Shown: one piece after another, positions 44,524 to 61,213 of the stretch
How the letters are laid out: each line of letters begins with the position of its first letter
How positions within the stretch are numbered: the first letter of the stretch is position 1
Assembly: GCA_943789365.1 (NCBI GenBank)
Contig: CALSTV010000001.1
Span: 1,860,001 to 1,924,000 of the forward strand
Source of the DNA: an uncultured Flavobacteriaceae bacterium
Lineage (GTDB): Bacteria > Bacteroidota > Bacteroidia > Flavobacteriales > Flavobacteriaceae
DNA: 64,000 bases
Reading direction: 5' to 3'
Translations under genes and position numbers: made by a program
The notes under the pieces: model-generated
Database searches by the model: none
What the model saw: only the letters and a program-made list of their open reading frames with translations
Told to the model about the DNA's origin: nothing

Positions 44524-44683
44524 TCGGTGTTTTTAGCATAAACATTAAACAACTAAGTGGCATAATTTTTTTTTTTGAATGTAAGACAATTTGAGAAAAT
44601 ATCGAATAAATAAATGTTGTCAATTTGAAGCGTTGTTTCTCTTTTTTGTATCTTGATAATTGAATATTAAAAACCTGTATTTT

Positions 44684-45193: not shown

Positions 45194-45200
45194 AAAAGTA

Positions 45201-46418: not shown

Positions 46419-46450
46419 AGTTTTTGAGAAAAGAGGGAAATCAGACATTT

Positions 46451-47224
46451 TTATTTTTTTGAAATGTTTTTATAACCGCTTGGTATTTTATAGGGGAAAG
46501 ACAAGGGTTCATCGAGCCGAATGTTTTTATAAGAAATTGACAAGTTTGCATTGTTTTTGTTGTCTTTTACAACAATTTCCATACGACCTGGAATATTGGT
46601 TTTTTCCACTTCCTTAAAATCGGAATAATTGATTGCTAAAAAGCGTCCCTGATCATAGCTTCGAATTTCTTGTTTTTCTATTTTATAATTAATAGGATGT
46701 ATCCAAAGTAAAATATCCGCGATTCCGTTGGGCGTATTTGGGCTCAACAAATGTGCTAATTGGTCGATACTGGCTTCGTAATCTTTTGGGTTCAGTTTGT
46801 AGAGGGCATCACCTAGGATTAAGTTTTGTAACATGGTGAAATTGAGGTCGGCACCCAATATTTCATTGATTTTAGAAAAGTCCCCTTCGTAATAAGTCTT
46901 GGTCAATTTGGTATAATAACTCACTCTAGTTGGTGTGATTATAGCTTTTGCAACGGAAAAACCAAATACAGATCCGCTCATCCAAATAGTTTTATCTTTT
47001 TCAAGTCTCAAGGATACATTTAAGGTTTGCGATTGCCCCGATTTTTTAAAGCTTACCTTTAAATCGGTTGAGAGCGTCTTGTTTTTAAAATTGCTCTTTT
47101 CATGTCCCCTTACCACTTTCTTCGCAGAAAGGGCTTCAATATCAGAACGATCTGTAATTGGTTTTGAAGTGCCACAGGAAATAAGAATGAGTAGAATGGC
47201 TGTTGCAAAAATGCGAAATTTCAT
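46451..47224 (-). CDS. DUF4292 lipoprotein (LolA-like fold)
   Basis: A 257-residue lipoprotein with a lipobox ending in LLILISCGTS (Cys17). The body has alternating strands typical of DUF4292, a LolA/LolB-like lipid-binding fold found in Bacteroidota (RLEKDKTIWMSGSVFGFSVAKAIITPTRV). It is upstream of the EnvC-like gene by about 30 bases, a pairing that suggests an envelope-maintenance operon. In the pre-island chromosome tex probably lay just upstream. Function unknown. Confidence 0.82.
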   Translation of the reverse strand: MKFRIFATAILLILISCGTSKPITDRSDIEALSAKKVVRGHEKSNFKNKTLSTDLKVSFKKSGQSQTLNVSLRLEKDKTIWMSGSVFGFSVAKAIITPTRVSYYTKLTKTYYEGDFSKINEILGADLNFTMLQNLILGDALYKLNPKDYEASIDQLAHLLSPNTPNGIADILLWIHPINYKIEKQEIRSYDQGRFLAINYSDFKEVEKTNIPGRMEIVVKDNKNNANLSISYKNIRLDEPLSFPYKIPSGYKNISKK

Positions 47225-47319
47225 AGAATGAGGTATTCAAATTTTGAGTTTGCAAGATACGTTTTTTAGAGCGTTATAGAATTTAAGTTTCGTTAATTTT
47301 TGAACCTTTATGTTTCTCG

Positions 47320-47363
47320 AAAATTCATAGCCAATTGAATGCGTTTTCGTTGTAGGTCTACTT
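47320..47363. repeat. 44-bp direct repeat, outer copy (tex 3'-end remnant)
   Basis: Identical over 44 bases to 57831-57874 inside tex. Read on the minus strand it encodes the tex C-terminal VDLQRKRIQLAMNF, and the bases beyond the repeat continue in frame as Arg-Glu-Thr-stop (TAA at 47309-47311). It is thus a detached alternative tex end placed between the exporter gene and the DUF4292 gene. Confidence 0.95.
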
Positions 47364-47383
47364 TATTTAAAAAAGGAATTGAG

Positions 47384-49540
47384 CTAATAAAGACCTTGCT
47401 GTTTCCAAAGTTTCTTATACAATTCGCTGTTTTTTAGAAGTTCCGGGTGATTTCCTTGTTCAGTGACTTTCCCTTTATCTAAAACGAAAATTTTGTCGGC
47501 GTTTTTTACAGTACTCAATCGATGGGCAATAACCAAAATTGTTTTTCCTTCTGAAACAAGTCTTTGCACCGCCTTTTGAACAAAAGTCTTAGAAACAGTA
47601 TCCAATGAAGAAGTTGCTTCATCAAAAATAAGGATTTCAGGATTTTTGTACAAGGCTCTTGCAATGGCTATACGTTGTTTTTGTCCCCCGGAAAGCATGG
47701 CTCCATTTTCTCCGATTGGTGTTTCAAAACCGTTCGGTAGTTGTTCAATAAGATCTAAAAACCCTAGTTCTTTTGTAAGTTCAAGAACTCTCTTTAAATC
47801 ACATTTATATTCACCGACTGCAATATTTTCAAGGATATTACCAGAAAATAATTCAATGTTTTGTGGTACAGCCGCTACCAAATTTCTGAGACTTTTATTG
47901 TTGATGTATTTGATGTCATTTTTTTTGATACTAATACGACCCGAGTTGATTGTATATAAGTTTTGTAATAAGGACGCTAAAGTGCTTTTGCCTGAGCCAC
48001 TTTCACCTACAATTGCAGAAACTTTACCTTTTTGAAAAGTGATATTAAAATCCGTAAAGATGTCGGTACGTGTTCCATATGAAAAAGAGACATTTTTAAA
48101 ATTAATGTCTCCAATCATATCTTTTGTTAATTCCATTTTTTCACTGATTTCTTCCCGTTCTAAGTCCATAATTTCAAAAAGACGATCTGCGGCAATCAAT
48201 GCATTTTGCATAGATTTATTGGTTTCTATTAGTTGTGCTACAGGCCCGGTAAAATAGCCTATCAATGCATAGAAGGACATGAGTTCTCCGGGGGTTATTT
48301 CATTTTCAAGTACGTAATATGCTCCGGTCCACATTAATATTATAGTAAACAGCATTGCTAAAAAACCTGTTGAGGAATTGGCAAATATATCGTTGAGCGC
48401 GGAAGAAAATACGGTGTTCAGTAATTTTACAAATCGATTTTCTGTTTTAGTATTGGCGTATTCCTCTATTCCGAATTGCTTGATTGTTTTCATGGAGTTT
48501 AATGATTCAACCAATTGACTTTCAAGATTGGCAGCATTTTCCATTAGTTTGCGTTCGTTCTTTTTGTTCAATCGATTTACTATTGTGTAAATGACTATAT
48601 ATATTGGGATTACAGCCAAGATTATTAAGGCTAGTTTCCAGAAATAGGTAAACATTAGGGTAAAAGAAAAAACTACGATAAATGTGTTGACAACAACGTT
48701 GATAGCAACGTCATTAATAAAAGCCCGAATTTTTACAGCATCATTAATTCTTGAAGTTATCTCCCCAATTTGCATGGTGTCAAAAAATCGCTGAGGTAAT
48801 GTCAACAAATGTTTGTAATACCCTAAAATTAATTTGGCATCCATCAATTGGCCTGTTCGTAAAATAAGAAGGCTTTTATAGGATCCTATGAATGTTTGCA
48901 ATACAAGGATTAATAACATTGTAATGCTTAAAAGGTTTAACAATTTAGTGTTTCCACCTACCAATACGTAATCTGTTATTTTTTCAATGTATATTGAAGT
49001 TGATAAGCCTAGTAGTGTGTAAATAACAGCGCCAAATAGAGCTTGTATAAGCACTTTTTTATGCGGAAGTAGTAATTCTTTGAACCGTGTAACAATCGCA
49101 ATTTTTTTGTTTTCAGGTCTGAAGTTTTGAGAAGGTACCAGCAATACAATAACCCCTGACCATATTTTCAGAAAATCTTCTAAGACATATTTCACAATCT
49201 CTCCAATTGCAGGGTCCATTATTTCAATGGTTGTAGTATTCACTTTATATATAACCACAAAATGATGTAATGGATTTTGTTGATCACCCATAATGACATG
49301 GGCAATTGCCGGAAGTGGAATTAGGGATAGGGATTCACTACTACCTTTCACGCCTTTGGCATTGAAACTCATTTTTTCGGCGGCATTTAATAGTCCCAAA
49401 ACATTAGTTCCTCTTTTGTCTGTGGATGCATATTGCCGAATTTTGGCGATGGGAACACCTAATTTAAAGTGTGCCGCAACCGATGCCAGACATGCCGCCC
49501 CACAGTCTCGAATATCATGTTGTTTGATTTTAATCTTCAC
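47384..49540 (-). CDS. C39-peptidase-containing ABC transporter (leader-cleaving exporter)
   Basis: A 718-residue inner-membrane transporter that cuts double-glycine leaders and exports the mature peptide. The C39 protease domain (about 1-125) has Cys13 in RDCGAACLAS, His93 in PLHHFVVI and Asp109 in IMDPAIG, a complete catalytic set. Six helices span about 165-430. The nucleotide-binding domain (about 475-718) has VGESGSGKST, LSGGQKQRIAIARAL and ILIFDEATSSLD. It is last in the island operon, 7 bases after the HlyD gene. Its likely substrates are the two short peptides encoded at 54797 and 57035. Confidence 0.95.
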   Translation of the reverse strand: MKIKIKQHDIRDCGAACLASVAAHFKLGVPIAKIRQYASTDKRGTNVLGLLNAAEKMSFNAKGVKGSSESLSLIPLPAIAHVIMGDQQNPLHHFVVIYKVNTTTIEIMDPAIGEIVKYVLEDFLKIWSGVIVLLVPSQNFRPENKKIAIVTRFKELLLPHKKVLIQALFGAVIYTLLGLSTSIYIEKITDYVLVGGNTKLLNLLSITMLLILVLQTFIGSYKSLLILRTGQLMDAKLILGYYKHLLTLPQRFFDTMQIGEITSRINDAVKIRAFINDVAINVVVNTFIVVFSFTLMFTYFWKLALIILAVIPIYIVIYTIVNRLNKKNERKLMENAANLESQLVESLNSMKTIKQFGIEEYANTKTENRFVKLLNTVFSSALNDIFANSSTGFLAMLFTIILMWTGAYYVLENEITPGELMSFYALIGYFTGPVAQLIETNKSMQNALIAADRLFEIMDLEREEISEKMELTKDMIGDINFKNVSFSYGTRTDIFTDFNITFQKGKVSAIVGESGSGKSTLASLLQNLYTINSGRISIKKNDIKYINNKSLRNLVAAVPQNIELFSGNILENIAVGEYKCDLKRVLELTKELGFLDLIEQLPNGFETPIGENGAMLSGGQKQRIAIARALYKNPEILIFDEATSSLDTVSKTFVQKAVQRLVSEGKTILVIAHRLSTVKNADKIFVLDKGKVTEQGNHPELLKNSELYKKLWKQQGLY

Positions 49541-49547
49541 AGCGTTG

Positions 49548-50705
49548 CTATTGATTAACTAAAGTTATTTCTTCGTTCAATAATTTGGGGTTAAGCCAAT
49601 CATCTACTTTGTCAAATAATAAATTCCAGAGACTTCGTTCAGTTAACGAGAACCTTGCTGTACAAGTCATTCCTTTTTTTAATTGGGCTTTAAACCCTTT
49701 TTTTAATAGGAGTTCATGGGTTTTCAATTTGCATCGTACTTTGAAGTAGTTCTGCGATCCGTTAATTGTTATATTTCTGTCAATTTCATGGACAATTGCG
49801 TTTCCAAATCCCCATTGATTGTAATTGAATGCATCTAGTTGCAATTTTACCGGCTGACCTGTTTTTATAAATCCAATATCTTTTGGTTGTATATAGCATT
49901 CTACAATTATTTCATCATCTGGTGAAATTTCTCCAATGGTTTCATTGGTCTTAAGGTAGACTCCCTGTTTTACGCCCGAATAGTTTATTATCGTTCCGGA
50001 GATGGGGGCTCTGATTGTGTAATTTTTCTTTTTCTCCATAAGTTGAGCAATTTCACCTTCTTGATTCTTAATTTGTTCTTCTATCTCCTCTTTTTTAGAG
50101 TGCCATGAACTGACTGTTTTATTTTTGTAGGTAGCAATTGTTTTGTTCGAAACTTCAAGCTCATATCTTGCCTTTTCATAATCAGATTTGGAGATGACGT
50201 CTTCCTTATAGCCTTTTTCGAATCGTTTGTAATTGTATTCAAGCTGGTTTCTTTGAGTTTCCAGCTCCTGGATTTTTTCTAAAAAATGTATTTTCTCTTT
50301 AATATATAGGTCTGTCTTCAATAGTTCGTATTTTTCTTCGCAGAGCAAGGATAGGTCGTTATGCTGTTCGATTAGGTTGATTAGTGTTTTTTCTTTTGTT
50401 TGGGCTTCGATAGATTCTATTGTGGAATCGATTTTCAATAACAGTTCTCCTTTTTGAACAATTAGGTTGTTTTTTAAATTGACATGGCTTACTTTTCCTT
50501 GTACTAAAGAGGAGATAATTACATTTTCTTTTTGAGATCTTAACATGCCCCGTGCCTGACTATCAACAGTTATGTTAATAAAGGGCAAAGCAGCAAAACA
50601 TATTACAATAACGGCTAGCACAATTAGGTATATTAAATTTGATGATTTGTTGTGTTTGTAATCTAAAGTTAAAACGCTGTTTTTTATGTCTTCTGAGTAA
50701 TTCAT
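49548..50705 (-). CDS. HlyD-family membrane fusion protein
   Basis: A 385-residue periplasmic adaptor linking the ABC exporter to TolC. One transmembrane helix is at about 25-48 (LIYLIVLAVIVICFAALPFI). A lipoyl/barrel-sandwich hybrid is split by a long coiled coil (about 100-220), and beta-barrel segments (TIRAPISGTIINYSGVKQGVYL) follow. It sits between the TolC and C39 ABC genes with gaps of 6-7 bases, forming a type I secretion unit. Confidence 0.92.
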   Translation of the reverse strand: MNYSEDIKNSVLTLDYKHNKSSNLIYLIVLAVIVICFAALPFINITVDSQARGMLRSQKENVIISSLVQGKVSHVNLKNNLIVQKGELLLKIDSTIESIEAQTKEKTLINLIEQHNDLSLLCEEKYELLKTDLYIKEKIHFLEKIQELETQRNQLEYNYKRFEKGYKEDVISKSDYEKARYELEVSNKTIATYKNKTVSSWHSKKEEIEEQIKNQEGEIAQLMEKKKNYTIRAPISGTIINYSGVKQGVYLKTNETIGEISPDDEIIVECYIQPKDIGFIKTGQPVKLQLDAFNYNQWGFGNAIVHEIDRNITINGSQNYFKVRCKLKTHELLLKKGFKAQLKKGMTCTARFSLTERSLWNLLFDKVDDWLNPKLLNEEITLVNQ

Positions 50706-50711
50706 CTGTAC

Positions 50712-52049
50712 CTAATTAGTAAACGGAATGTTTTCGTTTTTTGATTCGACAATGTAACTTTCAATTATTTTTTGCTTATAAAGTAGTTCGTATTTGATTT
50801 GGGTCTTTTTTAGTTGTGAAAAGACATACTCGTTTTTCTTTCCGGTAAACTCAAAGGTGTTTATTTCTCCTATTTCATAAAGTTTTGCTGAGAATTGATA
50901 AACCTCTTTAGTTTGCTTTTCTGTTTTTGTTGCTGCCGCATAATTTTGTTTAGCAGCCATGATATCAAAGTATAAGGTTTCTACTGTGTTTGTGATGTCT
51001 TGCTTTTCCTGAGCCAATTTTATTTTTTGAAGTTCTCTTTTTAATTTCGACTGGTGGATTTTGGTTTTGGTGTTTCCTTGATTGAAAACAGGAATTTGCA
51101 AACCGACACTTCCGTATTGATAAAGATTGTTGCGAAATTGTTCGTTAAAAGACAGGTTTTGGTTGTCAAAAATTTGTTGAGCAGATGTTCCTAAACTATA
51201 ATCGAAGGTAATTTTTGGAAAATATTGGGTTTTGTAATTTGCAATTTCGTTTTCTGAAAGTTTTACCTTTTGTTTTGCTATTTCAACACTTATGCTGTTA
51301 GATAGAGCAAGTGAAATAAGCTCCTCTAGATTTATTTCTTTTTTTAGAGTTTCATTTGAGTTGTCAATGATTTCAAAATGTTGCTTGTCAGGAACTTGAA
51401 GTAAAACAGCCAACTCAAACAAGGCTCTTTTATAGTTGATTTTTTCAGTTTGGTATGTTTGCCAATCTTGTATCCAATTGGATTTTTCTTCACTTAGCTC
51501 ATTTTTGGCAATGTTTCCTAATTCGAAAAGTTTCTCTTTACTTTTTATAAATTTTTCTCGGTTGGCGAAAATGTTTTTTGCAAGCTGTAGTCGCTCTTTT
51601 GCAATTAAAACAGAGTAGTACTTTGCAATAATTTCCAACTTCAATTCAAACTTATTTTGTTGGGCAGTTAACAGCGTAGTTTTTAATTTAATTTCCTGAT
51701 TTTGGATGTTGATTTTTTGAGCGTTGTTGTTCCACAGTGTGACAGATGCATTGATTCTTGCATCATTTCTGTAACTTCTTATTTCTTTGTACTGTCCGAT
51801 AAATTCTCCTGAAAACATCTGTTGGAATCCATAGGAAAGACTATTGTTGAGTGTCGCGGATAATACGGGCAGCCTTTTGTTTTTTTGAAATTTCAATTCC
51901 TTTGCTTGAATTTGATGTTGGAAGTTCGCTTCCATTATTTGTAGGTTGTTGAGAAAGGCAAATGAAATACAATCATCTAAGGTCCATTTTTCTTGGGAAA
52001 ACAAGTTAAGGCTCAGAAATAGGAACAGTTTGTTTATTAAAAAATTCAT
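50712..52049 (-). CDS. TolC-family outer-membrane efflux protein
   Basis: A 445-residue outer-membrane channel. A signal peptide (about 1-19) is followed by two TolC repeats of long amphipathic helices with short barrel strands. NLQIMEANFQHQIQAKELKF is the typical first helix and FDYSLGTSAQ marks the second half. It completes the exporter with the HlyD and C39 ABC genes downstream. The upstream 32-residue membrane protein gene ends 36 bases before it. Confidence 0.92.
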   Translation of the reverse strand: MNFLINKLFLFLSLNLFSQEKWTLDDCISFAFLNNLQIMEANFQHQIQAKELKFQKNKRLPVLSATLNNSLSYGFQQMFSGEFIGQYKEIRSYRNDARINASVTLWNNNAQKINIQNQEIKLKTTLLTAQQNKFELKLEIIAKYYSVLIAKERLQLAKNIFANREKFIKSKEKLFELGNIAKNELSEEKSNWIQDWQTYQTEKINYKRALFELAVLLQVPDKQHFEIIDNSNETLKKEINLEELISLALSNSISVEIAKQKVKLSENEIANYKTQYFPKITFDYSLGTSAQQIFDNQNLSFNEQFRNNLYQYGSVGLQIPVFNQGNTKTKIHQSKLKRELQKIKLAQEKQDITNTVETLYFDIMAAKQNYAAATKTEKQTKEVYQFSAKLYEIGEINTFEFTGKKNEYVFSQLKKTQIKYELLYKQKIIESYIVESKNENIPFTN

Positions 52050-52084
52050 AGCTTAAATTTTTATTATTCAATTGACGGCTATTT

Positions 52085-52183
52085 TCACCGGAATAAGGCA
52101 TAACCAATGAGAATTCCTATTAAAAAAAGAAGGATGAGTTCTATTGAAACGTTTTGAGTGAATGGATTCTTTTTCTTGTTCAT
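52085..52183 (-). CDS. 32-residue single-helix membrane protein
   Basis: The minus-strand ATG at 52181-52183 overlaps the stop of the upstream 135-residue gene in the arrangement ATGA, and the frame stops at 52085-52087. The product has a basic start, MNKKKNPFTQ, and one hydrophobic helix (IELILLFLIGILIGYALF), predicting an inner-membrane peptide with its N-terminus inside. The coupling and position inside the exporter operon argue it is a real gene. A role as immunity peptide or exporter accessory subunit is possible, but nothing shows it directly. Confidence 0.75.
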   Translation of the reverse strand: MNKKKNPFTQNVSIELILLFLIGILIGYALFR

Positions 52184-52587
52184 GATGTCAATAAATTTAA
52201 TTCGAGGTTGATTTGAGTGAGTTTGTTTTGCGTTTCAAAAGAATATTCTTTTGATTCATTTAAATAGTATTCAAACAACGATTTAGATGCATTAAGGATT
52301 TTTATTTTTGTAGCAATATCAGTTTGTAGTTCCGCGTCCAGAAATAATAGTTCCGCAACAATGTGAATTTTTTTTAAAGAGCCATTCTCTTCTAATTGAA
52401 TGAATGTAACCAGCTCATCTTTAGTGCCGGTTCTAAAAAACTGTGCATCTATTCCTAAAAGCGCGTAGCTATCGGTAAGCTGTTGCTTGGCTTTTTCTGT
52501 TTCATTGGTGTCAATATTATTTGCGATCCTTTGAATGGCATCAAATAACTGTTGTATCAATCGGATGAAATAATCTTTTTCAATCAT
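52180..52587 (-). CDS. Hypothetical 135-residue helical protein
   Basis: No family recognised. The protein is soluble, acidic and predicted all-helical (FIRLIQQLFDAIQRIANNID, AELLFLDAELQTDIATKIKI), with no signal peptide, cysteine or obvious catalytic motif. Its start overlaps the DUF3267 gene by 8 bases and its stop overlaps the small membrane-protein gene by 3, so it is made stoichiometrically with both. An immunity or chaperone-like role in the peptide system is a guess from context. Confidence 0.8.
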   Translation of the reverse strand: MIEKDYFIRLIQQLFDAIQRIANNIDTNETEKAKQQLTDSYALLGIDAQFFRTGTKDELVTFIQLEENGSLKKIHIVAELLFLDAELQTDIATKIKILNASKSLFEYYLNESKEYSFETQNKLTQINLELNLLTS

Positions 52588-53128
52588 GATTTTCTTTTTT
52601 ATCTATTATATAAAATCCACATTCTGTAGGATGGTCTAAAAGCAGTTTGTTTTTTGGAATCTTTAAACTCAATAAGTAAATGATAATGTCTCCTCCGGCA
52701 GAAAACAACATAAAAGCGCCAAAAAAAAACGTAAAAAATTTGCCAAATACCATTCCAGCTATCATTGGTACTAAACCCAATATTATACCTGGCATTAATA
52801 ACGCAATTCTGTACTGAAAAACTAGTAATGGTTTTCTACAATGTGCATAGGGTGTGAGTTTTCTCCATAAAATTCCAATTTTCACGTCACACCAGCCGTT
52901 TTCAGAAAATGCGGCAAAGAATATTGCATGAATTAACTCATGAATAAAAATTGAAAACAAGGCAAGTAAGACTAAATAGAATAATCTTAAAGGAGAGTCA
53001 ATATAGGCATCAAAATTTGGGAATTTCCAAATATAAAAATAGGCTATAAAAAAAATAGATAATACTGGCAGAAAAAGTAATCCTAATAGATTTACTTTTG
53101 TTATTTCTATCGTTCTCTTATCTTTCAT
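52580..53128 (-). CDS. DUF3267 zincin-like membrane protein
   Basis: A 182-residue protein with four or five helices. The motif HELIHAIFFAAF (HExxH, about residue 65) and a later SAGGDIIIYLLSL segment match the DUF3267 family, described as putative membrane-embedded zinc metallopeptidases. The location in a peptide-secretion island suggests processing of a peptide, signal or immunity factor. The upstream 71-base region is a duplicated module also found before the first peptide gene. Activity is inferred from the motif only. Confidence 0.85.
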   Translation of the reverse strand: MKDKRTIEITKVNLLGLLFLPVLSIFFIAYFYIWKFPNFDAYIDSPLRLFYLVLLALFSIFIHELIHAIFFAAFSENGWCDVKIGILWRKLTPYAHCRKPLLVFQYRIALLMPGIILGLVPMIAGMVFGKFFTFFFGAFMLFSAGGDIIIYLLSLKIPKNKLLLDHPTECGFYIIDKKENHD

Positions 53129-53143
53129 TTTTTCTAGTTTGAA

Positions 53144-53213
53144 ATAAAATTATTGTTTTGAATTTTCGAAACAATTATCGACAAATCATTCACTCTGAGT
53201 TTTATACAATTTT
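53144..53213. repeat. Duplicated intergenic module, copy 1
   Basis: Two blocks shared with 55064-55167: 53144-53167 (22 of 24 identical) and 53171-53213 (41 of 43 identical), separated here by 3 bases against 37 in the other copy. It lies between the ABC ATPase stop and the DUF3267 start, so it may carry a promoter or RNA signal for the DUF3267 group. Confidence 0.85.
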
Positions 53214-53859
53214 ATTTTTCATCCATTTTAAATAAAATACGTTCAATTTCATCAAATTCTGTTTTTTTAAACTCTTTGAGCTTTGTGTCTTGAATAAGGA
53301 GAATTGATTCACAAATACTATATAGAGAATCCAAAATGTGAGAAGAAATAATGACAATGCCATTTTTTACTTTTTCTTTCAGGTAATTTGTCAACCTATA
53401 GTTCGATTCAATATCTAAACCATTGAACGGTTCGTCTAAAAGATATATTTGAAAATCCTTTTGGAAGATGGCATTCAAGTATATTTTTTTTTTCATTCCT
53501 GTGGAAAATTCCTTTATCAATTTGTTTTGAGGGATTTCAAATAAATCCTTTTCATCGGTTTTTTCGATTTCCAATAATTCTGCATAAAATTCCTTGAACT
53601 CAGAAGAGGTCAATTCACCATAAACATGAGGTTCTGTAGGGCACCAAGCAACTTCACTTATATTTAGTTTGTGACCCTTAAATTCGGTATTACCTTTGTA
53701 TTTCACCAATCCTAAAATGCACTTAAAAAAAGTTGTTTTCCCTTGGCCGTTTTTACCCACAAGGCCATAGAGACTTCCTTTTTCAAAGGGATATTCTATG
53801 TTTTTGATAACGGTTTGTTGTCCATATTTTTGTTCTTCAATTCTAAGGTTTAAAGTCAT
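53212..53859 (-). CDS. ABC transporter ATP-binding protein
   Basis: A 215-residue ATPase with Walker A VGKNGQGKTTFF (about residue 35), signature FSTGMKKKIYLNA and Walker B IYLLDEPFNGLD, followed by the H-loop VIISSHILD. It resembles the BcrA/SkfE-type ATPases of bacteriocin immunity or export systems. It overlaps the permease gene by four bases and would power it. The pair is separate from the C39 exporter, so it probably has a different job, such as self-protection. Confidence 0.9.
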   Translation of the reverse strand: MTLNLRIEEQKYGQQTVIKNIEYPFEKGSLYGLVGKNGQGKTTFFKCILGLVKYKGNTEFKGHKLNISEVAWCPTEPHVYGELTSSEFKEFYAELLEIEKTDEKDLFEIPQNKLIKEFSTGMKKKIYLNAIFQKDFQIYLLDEPFNGLDIESNYRLTNYLKEKVKNGIVIISSHILDSLYSICESILLIQDTKLKEFKKTEFDEIERILFKMDEK

Positions 53860-54743
53860 GATTTGAGTTTTTTTAAATTTTTGTTTCCCGAATAAATCAA
53901 AAATGGTATGGCCACAAAAGGTAAAAAGTGGTCAAAACCGGCAAGAATGATAACATATAAGAGTTGCTGCTGAAGGGGTCTGTTAAAAAAAGAGTATTTA
54001 ATCAGAATATTTATCATTACCGGAATAATTAGTAATGGAATCCATTTCAACAATGCAAACTTCCCTGAAATAAATATTATTATTCCTGTTGGAATTAATA
54101 AAAAAAGACTATTGTAAATAGCTGATTTAAATTGTTCAACAAGGTAGTTTTTGCTTTTGTTAACTTTAATAAAATAGATTTTCTCTCTGTAAAAGGATGG
54201 GATACTGAGTGTGAAGGCTACCATCAAAATAGCGAATAATATCAGGTTATTATTATCGTACAACAAACCAAGAATAATAAATAATGCAATCGCGACCAAA
54301 ACTGAAAAAAGTTTGTATTTTCTAAAACAAATCACCCAAAAAGGGTCGAATAATTTAAAAGGATATTTATTTATACGAGCGTTGTAACGGGGTAAGTTCA
54401 GGTATAACATTAGTACCAGTTGATACAATAAAAATGAAACCCATTGTCTGGCTAAGACTAGCGGTATGGTAAATGGTAGACTGTAAATTGAATATTCCAC
54501 ATAATAGATACGCTTATAATGTTTATTGTATCTCAATAAGTCGCAATCTTCTCTTTTCAAGTGTCGGACTAATATATCTAAAGAAAATAAAAGAAAATAA
54601 AAGTGATATTCCTTTGTGTATTGTAGTAAAAGATAATCTGTAATGCCTAAAAAAAGCAATACGGTCAAATAAACAGAAAAGTCTACTTTTCCAAATAGTT
54701 TTCTCAATCGAATTAAAATAAAATACCAAATTATTTTGATCAT
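53856..54743 (-). CDS. ABC-2-like membrane permease subunit
   Basis: A 295-residue polytopic membrane protein with about seven or eight helices (FSVYLTVLLFLGITDYLLLQ, LFSVLVAIALFIILGLLY, LLYVIILAGFDHFLPFVAIP). Family assignment is weak by eye, but the four-base overlap with the ABC ATPase gene shows it is the cognate permease. It starts 54 bases after the first peptide gene, beyond a hairpin. Immunity by peptide removal is the favoured inference. Confidence 0.78.
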   Translation of the reverse strand: MIKIIWYFILIRLRKLFGKVDFSVYLTVLLFLGITDYLLLQYTKEYHFYFLLFSLDILVRHLKREDCDLLRYNKHYKRIYYVEYSIYSLPFTIPLVLARQWVSFLLYQLVLMLYLNLPRYNARINKYPFKLFDPFWVICFRKYKLFSVLVAIALFIILGLLYDNNNLILFAILMVAFTLSIPSFYREKIYFIKVNKSKNYLVEQFKSAIYNSLFLLIPTGIIIFISGKFALLKWIPLLIIPVMINILIKYSFFNRPLQQQLLYVIILAGFDHFLPFVAIPFLIYSGNKNLKKLKS

Positions 54744-54760
54744 ACTGCTCTGTTAAAATT

Positions 54761-54791
54761 AGCACTTAGAACTTGTGAAATTCTAAGTGCT
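54761..54791 (-). terminator. Hairpin between peptide 1 and ABC permease (attenuator)
   Basis: AGCACTTAGAA (54761-54771) and TTCTAAGTGCT (54781-54791) form an 11-bp stem with a 9-base loop, just past the peptide 1 stop. On the minus strand it is followed by AATTTTAAC, a weak U tract. It could stabilise the peptide message and let only part of the transcripts continue into the ABC genes. Confidence 0.7.
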
Positions 54792-54796
54792 ATTTG

Positions 54797-54934
54797 CTAA
54801 TACGCTTTATGGGTTCCCATAGGACCTAATAGATACCATGCGACCACTATTGCCAAAGGTAAAATTCCCCCTTCAACCTCACGTACTTCTTGGGGATTCA
54901 ATTCCAGCACCCCATAATTTTCTAAATTTTTCAT
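54797..54934 (-). CDS. Double-glycine leader peptide precursor 1
   Basis: A 45-residue precursor too short for usual gene finders. The leader begins MKNLENYGVLELNPQE and ends VREVEGG; the hydrophobic positions and Gly-Gly match bacteriocin-type (ComC/GG) leaders cleaved by C39 peptidases. The 22-residue core starts ILPLAIVVAWYLLG and ends GTHKAY; it is hydrophobic and has no cysteine, so a lanthionine or disulfide is excluded. It has its own promoter-operator block and lies between the MutS-like and ABC permease genes. Antibacterial or signalling activity is inferred. Confidence 0.87.
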   Translation of the reverse strand: MKNLENYGVLELNPQEVREVEGGILPLAIVVAWYLLGPMGTHKAY

Positions 54935-55061
54935 AATCTTAAAATTTTAATTAAACATTTAAATTTTGTCAAAATCTTCAAATGTGCACCTAAAAAAACT
55001 TTGACAGCTATCAAATATAAATGCGCCCACTGCCAAACACTGGCAGTTTGCTGTTTTTTTG
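54866..55061. repeat. 196-bp duplicated promoter-leader block, copy 1
   Basis: Aligned without gaps to 57110-57305 (offset 2244) with about 15 differences by eye. It covers the peptide leader codons, a roughly 65-base 5' leader, the promoter and operators. At its far end it contains an in-frame relic of the regulator C-terminus (QKNSKLPVFGSGRIYI then stop, against QKNSKLPSYGSGCIYI in the intact gene). Homology stops abruptly at both ends. Confidence 0.93.
55000..55046 (-). promoter_or_regulatory. Promoter and operators of peptide 1
   Basis: On the minus strand TATATTTG (complement of 55012-55019) is the -7 box. No TTTG is at the -33 spacing; instead a CTGCCA-N5-TGGCAG palindrome (55030-55046) covers that area. 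A second inverted repeat TTTGACAGCTATCAAA (55000-55015, one mismatch) covers the expected transcription start. The layout suits an activator site upstream and a repressor site at the start. Confidence 0.65.
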
Positions 55062-55063
55062 TG

Positions 55064-55167
55064 ATAAAATTATTATTTCGAATTTTCCAGTTTTCATAAT
55101 TGAATTATCATTCCTCATTTTACAACAACTATCGACAAATCAGTCACTCTGAGTTTTATACAATTTT
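55064..55167. repeat. Duplicated intergenic module, copy 2
   Basis: Second copy of the module at 53144-53213, here with 37 bases between its two blocks (55064-55087 and 55125-55167). It starts inside the last codons of the MutS-like gene and leads into the peptide 1 promoter block. Confidence 0.85.
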
Positions 55168-56928
55168 CATATTTTTTAGTAAAAAGGAAGCATTTCTATT
55201 TTTTGAAATACCTTGTTTTAATTTATAATCGAAATGAAGTTCATCTTCTAAAATATCGCCATCGAAATACGCATTTTGAATTTGTTCGTACTTATCTGTT
55301 AGCGTACAAAGGCTTAAATCATGAGTTGCAATCAATCCGGTTGTATTTAATAGCAACAATTTTTCAAGAAACTGTTTAGAGCCTTCTGCTTTATCTATAC
55401 TGTTCGTTCCTTTTAGGATTTCGTCTAAAACAACAAAATAATGTTCTTGTTGTAAGGCTTCAACAATTAATTTCAATCTCTTTAATTCAGAGAAAAAGTA
55501 AGAGGTGTCTTTAGCTAAAGAATCAACAGTTCTCATACTTGTGATTAATTTTACCGGACTGTATTTCATTTCGGAAGCGCAAACCGGTAATCCTATGTTT
55601 GCCATTACAATACTCAAAGAAACAGTTCTTAAAAATGTGCTCTTTCCAGCCATATTGGAGCCAGTTACAATTGTAATCGTTTTTGAATTTATTAGGCAGT
55701 CATTTGTAATTCTCTTTTCGATATCCAATAATGGGTGTCCTAAGTCTTTTGCATGGATCACTGTGTCAGTGTCGGTAATTTCAGGAAAGGTATAATTGGG
55801 ATGATTGAAAGCAAAGTTGGCCAAACTGTTTTGTGCGTCAAAGAAAGAGACAATTTCAAAACACTCTGAGACGTAATGCTTGTATGAAAGAATCCACTTT
55901 TCAATTTTGTATGCTTGCCATAAATCCCATAAAAACAAAGAGTTTCCTATAAAAGCAAAGAGTAAATTATTTCGTTGGTCCAAAGCATCTAGCGCTTTAG
56001 AGAATTTTTGAAAGATTAAAGATGCGTTTTTGTTATTCCTTCTTAATTTTTCTTGCATCGAGATCAAAATTCTGGAATGATACGTTTCATTTTCTATCAT
56101 CTCTAAAAGCTTGTAGTATAGCTCTATATTAACCCTTGATTTGGAAGAATTGTCATAGATTTTATTAACTTTAGATACAAAAAGACTAGAAATACCCAGT
56201 CCAACAAAAATCCAAACCACTAAATGTGAGAATATTAAATAGTCAAAAAAGATACCAAAGAAAATTGAAATTGTAAAGGAAGAAAAAACGAGTACAATCT
56301 TCAATATATGTTTTGGCAAGAGAGCTTGATGATTCTGAATCCATTTTAAGGTTAGTAAAATAGGTGTCGTGTTTTTTACTAAATTGGCTGTTGTTGAAAA
56401 ATTTTGTCTCCATGTGACTTTAGTGGATAATTCTTTGATGATTTCCTGCCTATGTTCAATGCCCTTTTCGTTGTTTTTATTTATTAAATTAGAAAGATGT
56501 AATTTTCCTGCTATTGTGCAAGTTCTATTGATAGATTGAAAAAAGGAATCCTTTCCAAACAAGTCAATATCATTACTATAGAAATGCATTAAATCTGAAA
56601 ATTCATGGCCTGAATCAAGTAGAATAAAATTTCCATGAAGCGCGTTTATTTCAATATCGTTAAGTTTAACTAGTTCCGTAAGTTTTCTTTCTCTATGTTT
56701 TAAATTGAGTGAAATAAAGAAAACAATAAAAAAAATGAAGGTTCCAATTATTCCTGAAAGTAGCATTAGATAATGAGAAGTCAAATAATAATAAACAAGA
56801 AATAGAGTTGCCGAGAAAATTGCAAGTCTAAGTAGACCTATCCAAAATAAATATTTTTGAATTTTTCGCAAAGTGTTTGCATATCGATCTCTGTTGAGTT
56901 TATAGGTCAGTATTGGGTCGTTTACCAT
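55156..56928 (-). CDS. Membrane-anchored MutS-like ATPase
   Basis: A 590-residue protein with the MutS ATPase domain at its C-terminus: Walker A GSNMAGKSTF (about 423), STS-like region MRTVDSLAKDTSYFFSEL, Walker B VVLDEILKGTNS (about 500) and IATHDLSL. Upstream it has a MutS lever-like helical region but no mismatch-recognition domain. Four transmembrane helices are predicted, two near residues 28-75 and two near 205-255. Such proteins occur in Bacteroidota and have no known role; they are unlikely to do mismatch repair. Here it is enclosed by two peptide genes, which points to a function in the peptide system. Confidence 0.88.
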   Translation of the reverse strand: MVNDPILTYKLNRDRYANTLRKIQKYLFWIGLLRLAIFSATLFLVYYYLTSHYLMLLSGIIGTFIFFIVFFISLNLKHRERKLTELVKLNDIEINALHGNFILLDSGHEFSDLMHFYSNDIDLFGKDSFFQSINRTCTIAGKLHLSNLINKNNEKGIEHRQEIIKELSTKVTWRQNFSTTANLVKNTTPILLTLKWIQNHQALLPKHILKIVLVFSSFTISIFFGIFFDYLIFSHLVVWIFVGLGISSLFVSKVNKIYDNSSKSRVNIELYYKLLEMIENETYHSRILISMQEKLRRNNKNASLIFQKFSKALDALDQRNNLLFAFIGNSLFLWDLWQAYKIEKWILSYKHYVSECFEIVSFFDAQNSLANFAFNHPNYTFPEITDTDTVIHAKDLGHPLLDIEKRITNDCLINSKTITIVTGSNMAGKSTFLRTVSLSIVMANIGLPVCASEMKYSPVKLITSMRTVDSLAKDTSYFFSELKRLKLIVEALQQEHYFVVLDEILKGTNSIDKAEGSKQFLEKLLLLNTTGLIATHDLSLCTLTDKYEQIQNAYFDGDILEDELHFDYKLKQGISKNRNASFLLKNMKIV

Positions 56929-56983
56929 TTGAATAAGATTAAATTATTTTGCTTTGATTTGAATAATTCACTTCCGAAAACTC

Positions 56984-57017
56984 AAAAAAGAGACCATTTT
57001 GTAAAAAACAGTCTCTT
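56984..57017 (-). terminator. Intrinsic terminator after peptide 2
   Basis: Minus-strand AAGAGAC and GTCTCTT arms (complement of 57011-57017 and 56988-56994) form a stem that runs straight into six T. It lies 18 bases past the peptide 2 stop, so most peptide 2 transcripts should end before the MutS-like gene. Confidence 0.8.
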
Positions 57018-57034
57018 CATAATTCATTAATATA

Positions 57035-57178
57035 TCACGCCATAATGATATAATCTGCCATTCCTGTATTAAACCATCCACTTGATATGGTTACCCATGG
57101 AAACCATCCTCCCCCTTCAACTTCACGCATTTCTTGGGGATTCAATTCCAGGACCCCATAATTTTCTAAATTTTTCAT
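57035..57178 (-). CDS. Double-glycine leader peptide precursor 2
   Basis: A 47-residue precursor. Its leader is identical to that of precursor 1 except Val17 to Met, ending MREVEGG. The core after Gly23 starts GWFPWVTISSGWF and ends ADYIIMA: 24 residues, rich in Trp and Phe, without cysteine and unrelated to the first core. A third Gly follows the Gly-Gly, so cleavage is expected after residue 23. It lies directly downstream of the regulator gene and upstream of a terminator, with its promoter inside the regulator 3' end. Confidence 0.87.
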   Translation of the reverse strand: MKNLENYGVLELNPQEMREVEGGGWFPWVTISSGWFNTGMADYIIMA

Positions 57179-57305
57179 AATCTTAAAATTTTAATTAAAC
57201 ATTTAAATTTTGTCAAAACCTTCAAATGTGCACCTAAAAAGATTTTGACAGTTGTCAAATATAAATGCATCCACTGCCATAGCTTGGCAGTTTGCTGTTT
57301 TTTTG
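57110..57305. repeat. 196-bp duplicated promoter-leader block, copy 2
   Basis: Partner of 54866-55061. Here the block overlaps the last 16 codons of the intact regulator gene, then gives the promoter, 5' leader and leader-peptide codons of precursor 2. This copy is probably closer to the ancestral arrangement because the regulator is complete. Confidence 0.93.
57244..57290 (-). promoter_or_regulatory. Promoter and operators of peptide 2
   Basis: Minus-strand TATATTTG (complement of 57256-57263) contains the regulator stop codon. The perfect inverted repeat TTTGACAGTTGTCAAA (57244-57259) covers the expected start of transcription, and CTGCCA-N5-TGGCAG (57274-57290) covers the -33 region. The palindrome arms equal those of copy 1 while four of the five spacer bases differ. 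Confidence 0.68.
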
Positions 57306-57587
57306 AAAATGACGACTTCCGGCATTGATTTTTATTAGTTCGTCGCCTTTTAAAATTTCAATTTGAAAATGCATACGAAAATCGAAATCCGTGCTATAAT
57401 AATAGGTAAATGACTTCCTGCTATAACATAGAGGAGCCTCCATTTCTTTTAAGCTGTCAAGCAAACGAAACAAAGAGCGTTCGCTGATTTGCATTCTTCT
57501 TGCAAACTCTATGGGCATTCCTGTTTTTTCTTGTTTGATTAAATTGTGTGCTTTACGCAATTTCACCAACCGACTTATATTTTTCAT
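57255..57587 (-). CDS. Helix-turn-helix regulator of the peptide system
   Basis: A 110-residue protein. An N-terminal helix-turn-helix is about 20-50 (IEFARRMQISERSLFRLLDS), followed by a short strand-rich region (DFDFRMHFQIEILKGDELIK). Small HTH_11-like proteins of this kind stand beside GG-peptide genes in Flavobacteriaceae, from memory. It is the first gene of the island and its own 3' end carries the promoter of peptide 2, so translation of the regulator could interfere with or be coupled to that promoter. It is the natural candidate to bind the palindromes before both peptide genes. Confidence 0.82.
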   Translation of the reverse strand: MKNISRLVKLRKAHNLIKQEKTGMPIEFARRMQISERSLFRLLDSLKEMEAPLCYSRKSFTYYYSTDFDFRMHFQIEILKGDELIKINAGSRHFQKNSKLPSYGSGCIYI

Positions 57588-57694
57588 ATCACAGCAGTTT
57601 ATATATTTTAAAAATGTCGGGGGGAAGTCCTGTAAAAAAGACCGGAGGGGAAAGGCTCATCAATGTAAATAAGAACAGTTCCGAGCACGAAAAA

Positions 57695-57741
57695 CAAATA
57701 TAGGATAGAAAATCGTAAAAGTCAATCCCTAAATCTAGGGA
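57695..57741 (-). promoter_or_regulatory. Promoter of the regulator with upstream inverted repeat
   Basis: Minus-strand TTGAC (complement of 57721-57725), about 18-19 bases, then TATATTTG (complement of 57695-57702). Immediately upstream is the inverted repeat TCCCTAAATCTAGGGA (57726-57741), a possible operator. Between promoter and gene (about 57617-57655) the leader has unusual C-rich runs on the minus strand. Confidence 0.6.
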
Positions 57742-57818
57742 TATTTGTTTTTCATCAAAAATAGTGATGCAGACAGAAGGTGAATTCTAGGGGACTTGTA
57801 AAACGCGTAGGAAATCTA

Positions 57819-59948
57819 TCATTCTTCCCTAAAATTCATAGCCAATTGAATGCGTTTTCGTTGTAGGTCTACTTCTTCCACACGTACCTTTACCTGTTGG
57901 TTAAGTGCTACTACATCACTTACATTACTCACGTATCCGTTGGAAAGTTTGGAAATATGTACCAAACCACTTTCTTTGATACCGATGTTTACAAAACAAC
58001 CAAAATTGGTCACGTTGTTTACAATACCCGGTACAATCTGACCCACTTTTAGATCTTCAATCTTTTTAATATTCGGGTCGAATTGAAACAGTGCTGCTTT
58101 TTGTCTAGGGTCTAACCCGGGCTTTTCCAATTCTTTGACGATGTCTTTTAAGGTAGGCAAGCCAATAGTGTCGGTACAATAATCGTCGAGCACCAGAGAA
58201 GCTAACAAATCCTTATTTCCAATCAGTTTGGAAAGGTCTACTCGTAAGGCATTCGCCATTTTTTTAACAACGCCATGACTTTCCGGATGTACGGCAGAAT
58301 TGTCGAGTGGATTTTCTGCGTTGGGAATACGCAAAAACGCCACCGCTTGTTCATAAGCTTTGGCTCCCAAACGAGGGACGTTTTTGATGGCAACTCTACT
58401 AGGAAAACCACCGTTTTCATTTCTGTAATTCACAATGTTTTCTGCTAATTTAGGCCCAATTCCTGAAACATAACTCAATAAAGAGCTGCTGGCAGTATTA
58501 AGATTTACACCTACACTATTTACGCAGCTTTCTACAACTACATCTAGTTTTTCTTTGAGTTTGGATTGGTCAACATCGTGCTGATATTGGCCAACGCCAA
58601 TAGACTTTGCATCTATCTTCACTAACTCCGCCAACGGATCTGCCAAACGCCTTCCAATGGAGACGGCACCTCTTACGGTCACATCGTAATTGGGAAATTC
58701 ATCACGGGCAATTTTGGAGGCAGAATAAATAGAAGCACCGGCTTCATTTACGACATACACTGGAATTTTACGGTCGAATCGTACTTTTTTTACCAAAGCT
58801 TCAGTCTCTCGGGAGGCAGTTCCGTTACCGATAGCAATGGCCTCAATTTGATAGGCATTTACCAAAGAACTCAGTTTACCCATAGCTTCTTTCTCTTTGT
58901 GTAGGTAAATGGTTTCGTTGTGTTGTAGGGCACCGTAGGTGTCGAGACAAACCAGTTTGCATCCTGTTCTAAAACCTGGGTCTAAAGCCAAAATAGCCTT
59001 TTCTCCTAAAGGTGCTTGTAAGAGTAGTTGTTTTAAGTTTTTGGCAAATACATCTATGGCATTGGTGTCTGCTTTTTCTTTGGCTTTTGTAAGCGCTTCA
59101 TTGGAAAGTGAGGGAGCCAAGAGTCGTTTATAGGCGTCATTTATGGCCAACTGTATGTGTGTTGCACAATCGTTTTGAGAACGGATGATTCTATTTTCAA
59201 TTTTTGAAATAGCCTCTTCTTTGTCAATACTTATTTTTACACGAATAAAACCTTCGTTTTCTGCACGTAGAATGGCAAGTAAGCGATGCGAAGGACAACG
59301 GCTCAGGCTTTCTGACCAATCGAAATAATCGCGGAATTTTTGGGCTTTTTCAGCTTGAATGCCCTCTGTACCTTTTTTATTTTCTTTGGAGTTGATGATT
59401 GCATTTCTTTGGAAATTAAAGCGCAGTTGATTGCGCACATCCAAACGTTCACTGATCCATTCGGCCATGATATACCTTGCGCCTTCGAGCGCTTCTAGTC
59501 CATTTTCAATACTTCCTTTTACAAATTTTTGTGTTGTGTATTCCAAATCTTGCACATTCTGAGCCATGATCATTTTGGCAAGGCCCTCTAAACCTTGTTC
59601 ACGAGCGGTATCTGCCTTTGTTTTACGCTTTTTTTTGTAAGGTAGGTAGAGGTCTTCCAAATCGCTAAGTAGGGAAGCATTTTTTATTTTTCCCTCTAAA
59701 ATTGCATCCAACGCCCCTTGTTCTTGAATGGATGTAAGGATGGTCTTTTTTCTCTTTTCCAGTTCGTCGAAGTTCTTTTTATGTGCTAAGATGGCACCAA
59801 TTTGAACTTCGTCTAAATTTCCAGTTCTTTCTTTACGATATCGCGAAATAAAAGGAACAGTACAATCTTCAGAAAGTAATTTTAAGGTGTTTATGATACT
59901 GATGTCTCGTATATCAGTATGTGATTTTATATAATCGAGTACTTGCAT
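57819..59948 (-). CDS. tex: Tex-family RNA-binding transcription accessory protein
   Basis: A 709-residue cytoplasmic protein of the Tex/YhgF family. The N-terminal helical domain leads to the YqgF/RNase H-like domain (ILALDPGFRTGCKLVCLD, about 325). Helix-hairpin-helix repeats (LLSYVSGIGPKLAENIV) and a C-terminal S1 RNA-binding domain (VGQIVPGIVNNVTNFGCFVN) follow. It is an essential-type housekeeping gene and the apparent target of island insertion. Its last codons (Arg-Glu-Glu-stop) come from the incoming DNA, whereas the original end (Arg-Glu-Thr-stop) remains at 47309-47363. Confidence 0.95.
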   Translation of the reverse strand: MQVLDYIKSHTDIRDISIINTLKLLSEDCTVPFISRYRKERTGNLDEVQIGAILAHKKNFDELEKRKKTILTSIQEQGALDAILEGKIKNASLLSDLEDLYLPYKKKRKTKADTAREQGLEGLAKMIMAQNVQDLEYTTQKFVKGSIENGLEALEGARYIMAEWISERLDVRNQLRFNFQRNAIINSKENKKGTEGIQAEKAQKFRDYFDWSESLSRCPSHRLLAILRAENEGFIRVKISIDKEEAISKIENRIIRSQNDCATHIQLAINDAYKRLLAPSLSNEALTKAKEKADTNAIDVFAKNLKQLLLQAPLGEKAILALDPGFRTGCKLVCLDTYGALQHNETIYLHKEKEAMGKLSSLVNAYQIEAIAIGNGTASRETEALVKKVRFDRKIPVYVVNEAGASIYSASKIARDEFPNYDVTVRGAVSIGRRLADPLAELVKIDAKSIGVGQYQHDVDQSKLKEKLDVVVESCVNSVGVNLNTASSSLLSYVSGIGPKLAENIVNYRNENGGFPSRVAIKNVPRLGAKAYEQAVAFLRIPNAENPLDNSAVHPESHGVVKKMANALRVDLSKLIGNKDLLASLVLDDYCTDTIGLPTLKDIVKELEKPGLDPRQKAALFQFDPNIKKIEDLKVGQIVPGIVNNVTNFGCFVNIGIKESGLVHISKLSNGYVSNVSDVVALNQQVKVRVEEVDLQRKRIQLAMNFREE
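57831..57874. repeat. 44-bp direct repeat, inner copy within tex
   Basis: Last conserved coding stretch of tex, identical to 47320-47363. The repeat ends at the codon for Phe in AMNF; beyond it the two copies diverge but still both encode Arg-Glu and a stop within three codons, as expected for related tex ends from two lineages. Confidence 0.95.
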
Positions 59949-60014
59949 TTTATGTCTTTGTAGAAAGGGCTAAAATACGATTTCGACTTGTAGAAAAAAA
60001 GCCTTACCGGGCTA

Positions 60015-61163
60015 TTAGTTCGAATATTTAAATTGTGTTTCTAAAGGAACTCCGTAGTTGGATTCTAATTCTGTTTTAATTTTTTTGTAAAAAGCAGTTT
60101 CAGGAGGTAAGCTATAGTTTGCCCAAAATTCAGGGTGATAAGGTATTTTGATATCCCCCATATCTTGTCCATGCCCTCCGAACGATTTCATTTTCATCTT
60201 CTTTTTATCAGATTCAATACCGGTAACAAACACTTCATGTCGATAAGCAGTTTGTACCTTAGGACTTTTTAGTTTGAGTGCTTTTTGAGTTTGAGGATCA
60301 ATTTTTCTGCTACTAATCCACTCTCTGTTGTGATAACTTAAATAGAGCTTTCCTGCTTCGTTTTTCTTGTAGACAAAGACGGCATTTAAATCGGAGTTTT
60401 CAATACGATAAATAGCATTGGTTTCGATACCGATGTACATTTTTATTTTAACATGACCTTTGGTACCCTGAACAATAAGCACACCTTCATTATCGTAGTT
60501 GGTGTCTCCAATTTTTTCCCATTCCATACGTTTTAAAAAGCTAGGATCGGCCAAAGGATTAATGTCAAGCATGATATTGATGGCATGTTGGTTTTGTTTT
60601 ACTTTTACAAAACGATAATCAGCGGATTTTCGAGATTCTGTAACGGCAATTTTTTTAGCGTAGTAGCCAGGCCCTTTATAGAGTAACAAGATGTATTGCT
60701 CTACAAAAAACTTCGATATGTTTTGTTCGACAGAGGAGCGTCGGTACAATAATTTTAGTTGATGCGTGTCGCTTATAAAATTTTCTTCTGCCGATTTTAG
60801 GCTTTCTTTTAGGATTTCTTTCGCATCGCTTACTTCAACAACATCCAAAGCTGTAACATTTTCTTTAAGAACAATGGTGTTTAATTTTTTATCGACATAT
60901 TCTTGAACGCAGATATTGTAAGTTTGAAATCCCATACTAGAAACTACCAGGGTGTCTAACAAATTTTCTTTAGAAATGCTCAAATAATAGGTTCCTTCTT
61001 CGGTGCTTGTTGTTCCAATGTTTTTAGAAGGGATTGTAATGGCAGCATAGGGAATTGTATCGCCAAATTCATCTTGTAAGGTTCCTGTAATGACTATTTT
61101 TTCCTGCTGAGCAAATAATTTAATAGTTGCAAGAAAGATGAAAAAGCAAAGTGAATTTTTCAT
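60015..61163 (-). CDS. Exported protein with carboxypeptidase-regulatory-like domain
   Basis: A 382-residue protein with a signal peptide (about 1-18, LFAQ) and an N-terminal carboxypeptidase D regulatory-like beta-sandwich (ITGTLQDEFGDTIPYAAITI, about 23-105). The C-terminal 270 residues are strand-rich and uncharacterised. Such proteins occur in Bacteroidota as periplasmic or surface proteins of unknown function. It stands alone between tex and the acyltransferase-like gene. Confidence 0.8.
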   Translation of the reverse strand: MKNSLCFFIFLATIKLFAQQEKIVITGTLQDEFGDTIPYAAITIPSKNIGTTSTEEGTYYLSISKENLLDTLVVSSMGFQTYNICVQEYVDKKLNTIVLKENVTALDVVEVSDAKEILKESLKSAEENFISDTHQLKLLYRRSSVEQNISKFFVEQYILLLYKGPGYYAKKIAVTESRKSADYRFVKVKQNQHAINIMLDINPLADPSFLKRMEWEKIGDTNYDNEGVLIVQGTKGHVKIKMYIGIETNAIYRIENSDLNAVFVYKKNEAGKLYLSYHNREWISSRKIDPQTQKALKLKSPKVQTAYRHEVFVTGIESDKKKMKMKSFGGHGQDMGDIKIPYHPEFWANYSLPPETAFYKKIKTELESNYGVPLETQFKYSN

Positions 61164-61213
61164 AGGATGCTAAAAGTGGTTTACGTTTGGTTGACCAAAG
61201 ATAAGCAATGAAA

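Follow-up and report, generated by a model that had tools for sequence, protein, structure and literature searches.

The window, a stretch of 64,000 nucleotides from an uncultured Flavobacteriaceae bacterium, contains a horizontally acquired bacteriocin-type gene cluster that lies behind the housekeeping gene tex, where insertions recur. Most likely, this cluster arrived through recombination without an integrase, which displaced the tex tail. A repeat pair around the cluster, a relic of the tex end beyond it, a deviant base composition of the island, a sporadic distribution of its cargo and the recurrence of insertions at tex in other genomes were observed directly. The tex end has been used for insertion more than once in Flavobacteriaceae.

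The island is bracketed by a direct repeat, with positions 47,314-47,363 and 57,825-57,874 of the window matching in 48 of 50 nt (96%) at a spacing of 10,511 nt. The repeat core is identical over 44 of 44 nt (E = 2.9e-19 against the 64,000-nt window), far above chance, which bears out the perfect 44-bp repeat around about 10.5 kb described in the first-pass annotation. One copy (57,825-57,874, minus strand), including the perfect core, forms the attached tail at the 3' end of tex, a whole open reading frame of 709 amino acids on the minus strand (57,819-59,948), the C-terminus of which reads MNFREE-stop (VDLQRKRIQLAMNFREE before the stop codon). The other copy lies in a detached tex tail on the minus strand (47,308-47,363), where translation of 47,361-47,308 yields the relic VDLQRKRIQLAMNFRET followed by a stop codon, so that the detached end with Arg-Glu-Thr-stop noted earlier was found as claimed. 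Outside the perfect core, both copies extend to the stop codon, the attached one as R-E-E and the detached one as R-E-T; since both end as plausible tex C-termini, they appear to be two tex alleles. When the source genome was searched with 47,225-58,000, no extra copy of the tex tail was detected at E ≤ 0.001 among the 40 of 85 candidates that were scored. The neighbour on the far side of the relic is a DUF4292 gene (46,451-47,224, minus strand; Pfam match). Comparison of the window's tex with that of G001 and G002, both too distant for the purpose, revealed no clear shift of divergence at the 3' end.

Between the repeats, 11 genes were recognised, all of them on the minus strand. The functions proposed for this single-orientation interior (peptide genes, regulator, C39 exporter, ABC pair, DUF3267 protein) hold, and a 590-aa MutS-type ATPase as well as TolC-like and HlyD-like proteins are also present. 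Starting from tex, the genes encode a small HTH-type regulator of 110 aa (57,255-57,587; HTH recognised by eye, no Pfam match); peptide 2, with 47 aa, a GG leader and a mature part of 24 aa (57,035-57,178); the MutS-type ATPase (55,156-56,928; Pfam/NCBIfam); peptide 1, with 45 aa, a GG leader and a mature part of 22 aa, ILPLAIVVAWYLLGPMGTHKAY (54,797-54,934); a 295-aa ABC permease-like protein (53,856-54,743), assigned via the adjacent ATPase and its homologues as there was no Pfam/NCBIfam match; a 215-aa ABC ATPase (53,212-53,859), whose best NCBIfam match, below cut-off, is a lantibiotic-protection ATPase; a putative DUF3267 zincin of 182 aa (52,580-53,128; Pfam); a 135-aa protein without Pfam/NCBIfam match (52,180-52,587); a TolC/OEP-type outer membrane protein (50,712-52,049; Pfam/NCBIfam); a HlyD-type adaptor (49,548-50,705; Pfam/NCBIfam); and a C39 peptidase/ABC exporter of 718 aa (47,384-49,540).

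The adjacency of GG-leader peptides to a C39 peptidase/ABC exporter and an adaptor conforms with a double-glycine peptide export system, although the exporter scored narrowly below the cut-off of TIGR01193 (518.6 versus 523.85 bits). With TIGR03949 (class IIb bacteriocin, lactobin A/cerein 7B family), peptide 1 reached 21.8 bits at a cut-off of 21.5, and peptide 2 stayed under it with 13.0 bits. From these assignments, the C39, HlyD and TolC proteins would cut and export the peptides, the ABC pair would provide self-protection, and the product would be peptides acting on, or signalling to, other bacteria.

The two peptide genes have a 196-bp repeat in common (54,866-55,061 and 57,110-57,305, minus strand; 92% identity), which spans the upstream region with the promoter and the leader and contains, in each copy, a TTGACA/TAAAAT pair and an inverted repeat. 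The mature parts are unlike, as if one gene had been copied and its mature part then replaced. A further repeat of 44 nt with 95% identity (53,170-53,213 and 55,124-55,167) is situated just behind the ABC ATPase and MutS-type genes, with the DUF3267 operon and peptide 1 downstream of it, and is possibly a regulator site. Flanked by the two peptide genes, the MutS-type gene is part of the peptide cluster itself, and a search of 21 C39 loci of other genomes yielded no homologue for it within the blastp limit applied. An Rfam search of 44,000-62,000 returned no family, and PADLOC, with 8 of the 11 proteins of the island as input, returned nothing beyond weak, partial ATPase-type matches.

The base composition, which the first-pass annotation had proposed to test, sets the island apart from its surroundings: the G+C content is 0.321 (32.1%) versus 0.357-0.377 in the flanks (86 overlapping windows of equal size), and GC3 of the island genes is slightly lower than that of the flank genes (p = 0.037; 9 versus 36 genes). 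Counting the source genome itself, 3 of 397 genomes of the family encode the permease, and 23 of 395 genomes of the order have the C39 exporter at E ≤ 1e-220; the permease had no match in three genomes of the same genus (G001, G002, G005). A MutS-domain match of some kind occurs in 6/6 genomes of the genus and the source genome encodes a 49% identical paralogue elsewhere, which speaks against the island being wholly foreign. A related cluster was identified in G343 (L168), with identities of 37% for the regulator, 62% for the C39 exporter, 39% for HlyD, 42% for DUF3267, 35% for the permease and 49% for the ABC ATPase. Its peptide is 70% identical to peptide 1, and the conservation of the mature part, FLPLAVVVAWYLIGPYGTHKAY, argues for peptide 1 being a real product. 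No match was obtained in plasmids for peptide 1 or in plasmids and phages for the permease. The cluster is a double-glycine-peptide export cluster of Bacteroidota type that was acquired horizontally and is sporadic in the order. Together with the recurrence at tex, composition and sporadic occurrence support the earlier view that a housekeeping gene received a foreign cluster at its end and remained whole.

That the cargo itself carries the bracketing repeats was rejected on the basis of 268 gene ends at the 21 C39 loci of other genomes. By eye, no end of a neighbouring gene brackets a whole cluster there; the matches were internal leader/operator repeats, duplicated segments or short matches. 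One C39 cluster (L272, 7043-10,398, of G626) has a tandem array of more than 12 short GG-leader peptide genes.

Copies of the tex end past unrelated cargo, for which the first-pass annotation had advised looking, were found at four other loci upon scanning the last 90 nt of tex plus 30-40 nt against the downstream DNA in sets of 110, 58 and 60 loci. At L076 (F. saliperosum), a copy of 88-98 nt lies 2.6 kb away, past one T9SS beta-propeller gene; at L337, 86 nt at 83% identity (about 110 nt by eye) recur 0.7 kb away, past a DUF433/DUF5615 pair; at L332, 37 nt at 89% recur 2.2 kb away, past PtuA/PtuB of Septu; and at L179, the 26-nt tex terminator is repeated 2.1 kb away, past genes for a serine hydrolase and a LytTR protein and ahead of an ssb-like gene. 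The duplicated stretch varies, comprising the tail only (window, L337, L332), the tail and terminator (L076) or the terminator only (L179).

For the window, we propose that the cluster was imported with tex as anchor and without an integrase of its own, and that its far end was joined illegitimately, displacing the old tail; to this reading we give about an even chance. The incoming peptide-secretion cluster would have recombined next to tex, anchored in the tex 3' end. On the near side, the incoming DNA would have carried, or paired with, a tex end, leaving tex whole; on the far side, illegitimate joining within the resident tex tail would have severed this tail and pushed it downstream, where it would now be the RET relic. 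The one-sidedness of the mechanism is our inference, and so is the assignment of the resident tail copy in this genome. An old 3' end kept past new cargo is seen as the detached tail of the window and also at L076, L337 and L332. At L332, the tex body (0.924) and the detached tail (0.944) are closest to the sister genome G847, whereas the attached tail is closest to L082 (0.944; G847 0.917), the tail comparison covering 36 nt; this pattern implies that the old tail was displaced and a new one imported. Of the three loci at which tails were phased, L332 is clear, L337 leans the same way and L076 is mixed; in the window, the 44 nt are identical in both copies and hence do not allow phasing. Counting against displacement are the lack of an empty tex-DUF4292 site in 201 loci, the perfect and hence att-like 44-nt core, the single clear outcome among the three phased loci, the absence of significant similarity among the tails of Septu carriers, the modest and threshold-dependent excess at tex, and the small share of enlarged tex-tatA gaps in Flavobacterium that have a tail copy (3 of 25).

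We favour displacement over an island that has lost its integrase. The island could also be the remnant of an integrative element, or one mobilisable in cis by an integrase encoded elsewhere, with the tex end as attachment core and the 44-nt repeats as attL and attR; we consider this possible but less likely. It keeps its standing chiefly because the repeat of the window is perfect over 44 nt, one copy keeping the tex end intact. At L076, moreover, identity extends over the stop codon and the terminator but not over the coding tails, which would fit an exchange within a common core. Elements residing at gene 3' ends are known, such as SGI1 at trmE (PMC8409611), and the 14 PF00589 matches of the source genome might provide an integrase in trans. 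Against this, the window contains no match to PF00589, a profile of tyrosine-type rather than serine-type recombinases, and the nearest match is about 82 kb from the island; the statement that no integrase remains thus stood for PF00589 within the window. No recombinase motif match was obtained in the 201 regions downstream of tex, with a motif that recovers no more than 4 of 9 known integrase loci. A bracketing gene-end repeat, as judged by eye, is likewise absent from the 21 other C39 loci. The limits of the repeat vary among the tex cases, without a constant core, which fits illegitimate joining better than a single integrase core, even if the cases could be different elements. Of the attachment-like site proposed at first pass, the repeat and the intact tex were retained, and a constant core and a PF00589 integrase in the window were not found. 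Separately, two integrase pairs in opposite orientation occur in the source genome (G000:C1:447090-448479 and 3685307-3686696); their equal scores and lengths suggest a duplicated mobile element.

A second alternative is that tex is nothing special, gene-end copies past inserts arising at many genes via ordinary duplication and insertion, and that its prominence stems from the window having been selected for it; this, too, we regard as possible but less likely. In a unified pass over 195 unique loci, from which 6 were dropped for short downstream sequence and the window was left out, a copy of at least 45 bits located 300-12,000 bp downstream was detected at 4 of 189 tex ends and, in accordance with this alternative, also at 10 of 1853 other gene ends, L198 among them (Fisher one-sided p = 0.034). 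All ten were kept, though some resemble paralogues or repeat families (L036, L173, L180). The excess fell short of p < 0.05 at the two other thresholds (40 bits: 4 tex versus 14 other ends, p = 0.078; 50 bits: 3 versus 8, p = 0.074), and is modest, threshold-dependent and suggestive rather than firm. At L051, the end of a 696-aa gene (8263) is copied 1.5 kb downstream at 9785-9880 (96 nt, 93%), which means that tail copies occur beyond tex.

Data from Flavobacterium weigh against this alternative. In 60 loci, a copy of at least 40 bits more than 300 bp downstream was present at 2 tex ends and at 0 of 620 other ends, the tex match of L314 (39.1 bits) falling under the limit. The tex-tatA gap was enlarged, by over 400 bp relative to the median, in 25 of 67 loci and the following interval in 0 of 65, although convergent and divergent intervals are unequal controls; tatA was not found in 2 of the 69 loci counted. 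The enlarged gaps included a recognisable tail copy in three cases (L076, L332, L337), and L284 and L303 hold relatives of the L076 cargo without a tail copy. In L072, L342 and L338, sisters of L076, L337 and L332, respectively, tatA lies 58-100 nt behind tex. With varied cargo at one interval and empty sites in sisters, tex-tatA constitutes a hotspot in Flavobacterium; the Flavobacterium label of genus g146 was inferred from the exact tex match between L076 and G899. Some inserts hold metabolic genes (an arginine-type operon in L286-L289, by eye), so that not every insert is a cassette.

The cassettes recurring behind tex in 200 loci were PtuA (4), DUF433/DUF5615 (3) and relatives of the L076 propeller (3), their near ends being located 19-105 nt from the tex stop codon. 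PtuA of one Septu clade (E ≤ 1e-80) was found in 4 of 150 genomes (G964, G883, G864, G460), and in 4/4 it is directly behind tex (L332, L347, L304, L287), L347 having been included because of its PtuA; this placement, too, argues against an unexceptional tex. Between L304 and L332, PtuA is 63% but PtuB just 26% identical. The four hosts are scattered over a tree of 31 tex sequences, and their tex tails show no significant resemblance to one another, equally high values being reached in 499 and 785 of 5000 random sets. A tentative reading, which we place somewhat short of even, is that in Flavobacteriaceae the tex 3' end serves as a port for the exchange of cargo. Small cassettes with Septu defence genes, the DUF433/DUF5615 pair, secreted propeller proteins or the bacteriocin exporter would each be attached to a tex tail and replace one another through homologous recombination, no recombinase encoded by the cassette taking part, and displaced tails would be footprints of the history of each swap.

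The first-pass annotation had looked to relatives for tex directly before the DUF4292 gene; none of the 201 tex loci, covered as far as downstream sequence was at hand for each, has DUF4292 downstream, so that this central check failed. The two genes are about 72 kb apart in G001, about 189 kb apart in G002 and on separate contigs in G005, in a genus sample of six genomes, none close to the source genome; the empty site of this lineage was thus never seen. By eye, the gene behind tex resembles an Lrp-type regulator in G001 and G002, and in G004 a 423-aa gene separates tex from this regulator. The differing neighbours of tex and DUF4292 in the genus point to a region rearranged in this lineage, but that a local duplication or rearrangement both created the tail copy and put DUF4292 behind tex, with the cluster an old resident, is improbable in view of the deviating interior composition and the permease lacking a match in G001, G002 and G005.

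The enterobacterial homologue of tex is yhgF. A 2010 list of the sites at which plasticity regions reside in Photorhabdus and Xenorhabdus includes yhgF (PMC3091717). As an insertion site, the locus is therefore not entirely without precedent, and the assertion that the tex 3' end is not a described hotspot needs restricting. It stood for Flavobacterium, where no paper on the displacement of a tex tail or on tex as a site was found in the open-access literature. Common to both is a recurrent island site at a tex homologue; the cited section on yhgF concerns another phylum and does not mention tail displacement (PMC3091717).

For T6SS effector genes, displacement of the 3' end by homology-facilitated illegitimate recombination was proposed, with Rhs cited as precedent (Kirchberger 2017, PMC5361080). 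There as here, cargo is found at the variable end of a conserved gene, with the old 3' end shifted downstream and no integrase; the displaced end there is that of the toxin/effector gene itself, whereas in the window it comes from tex, a housekeeping gene with no relation to the cargo, and there, too, the mechanism is a proposal (PMC5361080). With SGI1, the tex case shares gene-end direct repeats flanking an insert and a gene left whole, but differs in that no integrase was found in the window, the repeat limits vary and no transfer genes are among those identified (PMC8409611). The core defence hotspots of Pseudomonas aeruginosa, for which exchange via conserved flanks by homologous recombination has been suggested, likewise have differing cargo between fixed core genes (PMC10250203); unlike these, the tex inserts mostly comprise one to a few genes, and a few show displaced tex tails as footprints. 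Bacteroidetocins resemble the window's cluster in combining a GG-leader peptide with a peptidase/ABC exporter on horizontally acquired DNA in Bacteroidota (PMC6671954). Mature bacteroidetocins A and B comprise 42 residues, and members of the family contain two or more cysteines and are mostly accompanied by a thiol oxidoreductase gene (PMC6671954). The mature peptides of the window, with 22 and 24 residues and no cysteine, lie outside this definition.

Some defence and antagonism hotspots show no single kind of mobile element, and the question arises by which route their cargo enters. A displaced housekeeping tail is a footprint of entry at the sequence level, which makes the question testable by counting and phasing tails across genomes. 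For Flavobacteriaceae, the tex site is a simple place to seek defence and peptide systems. Other cargo occupies it in some relatives, so that it may serve for docking independently of an integrase of its own.
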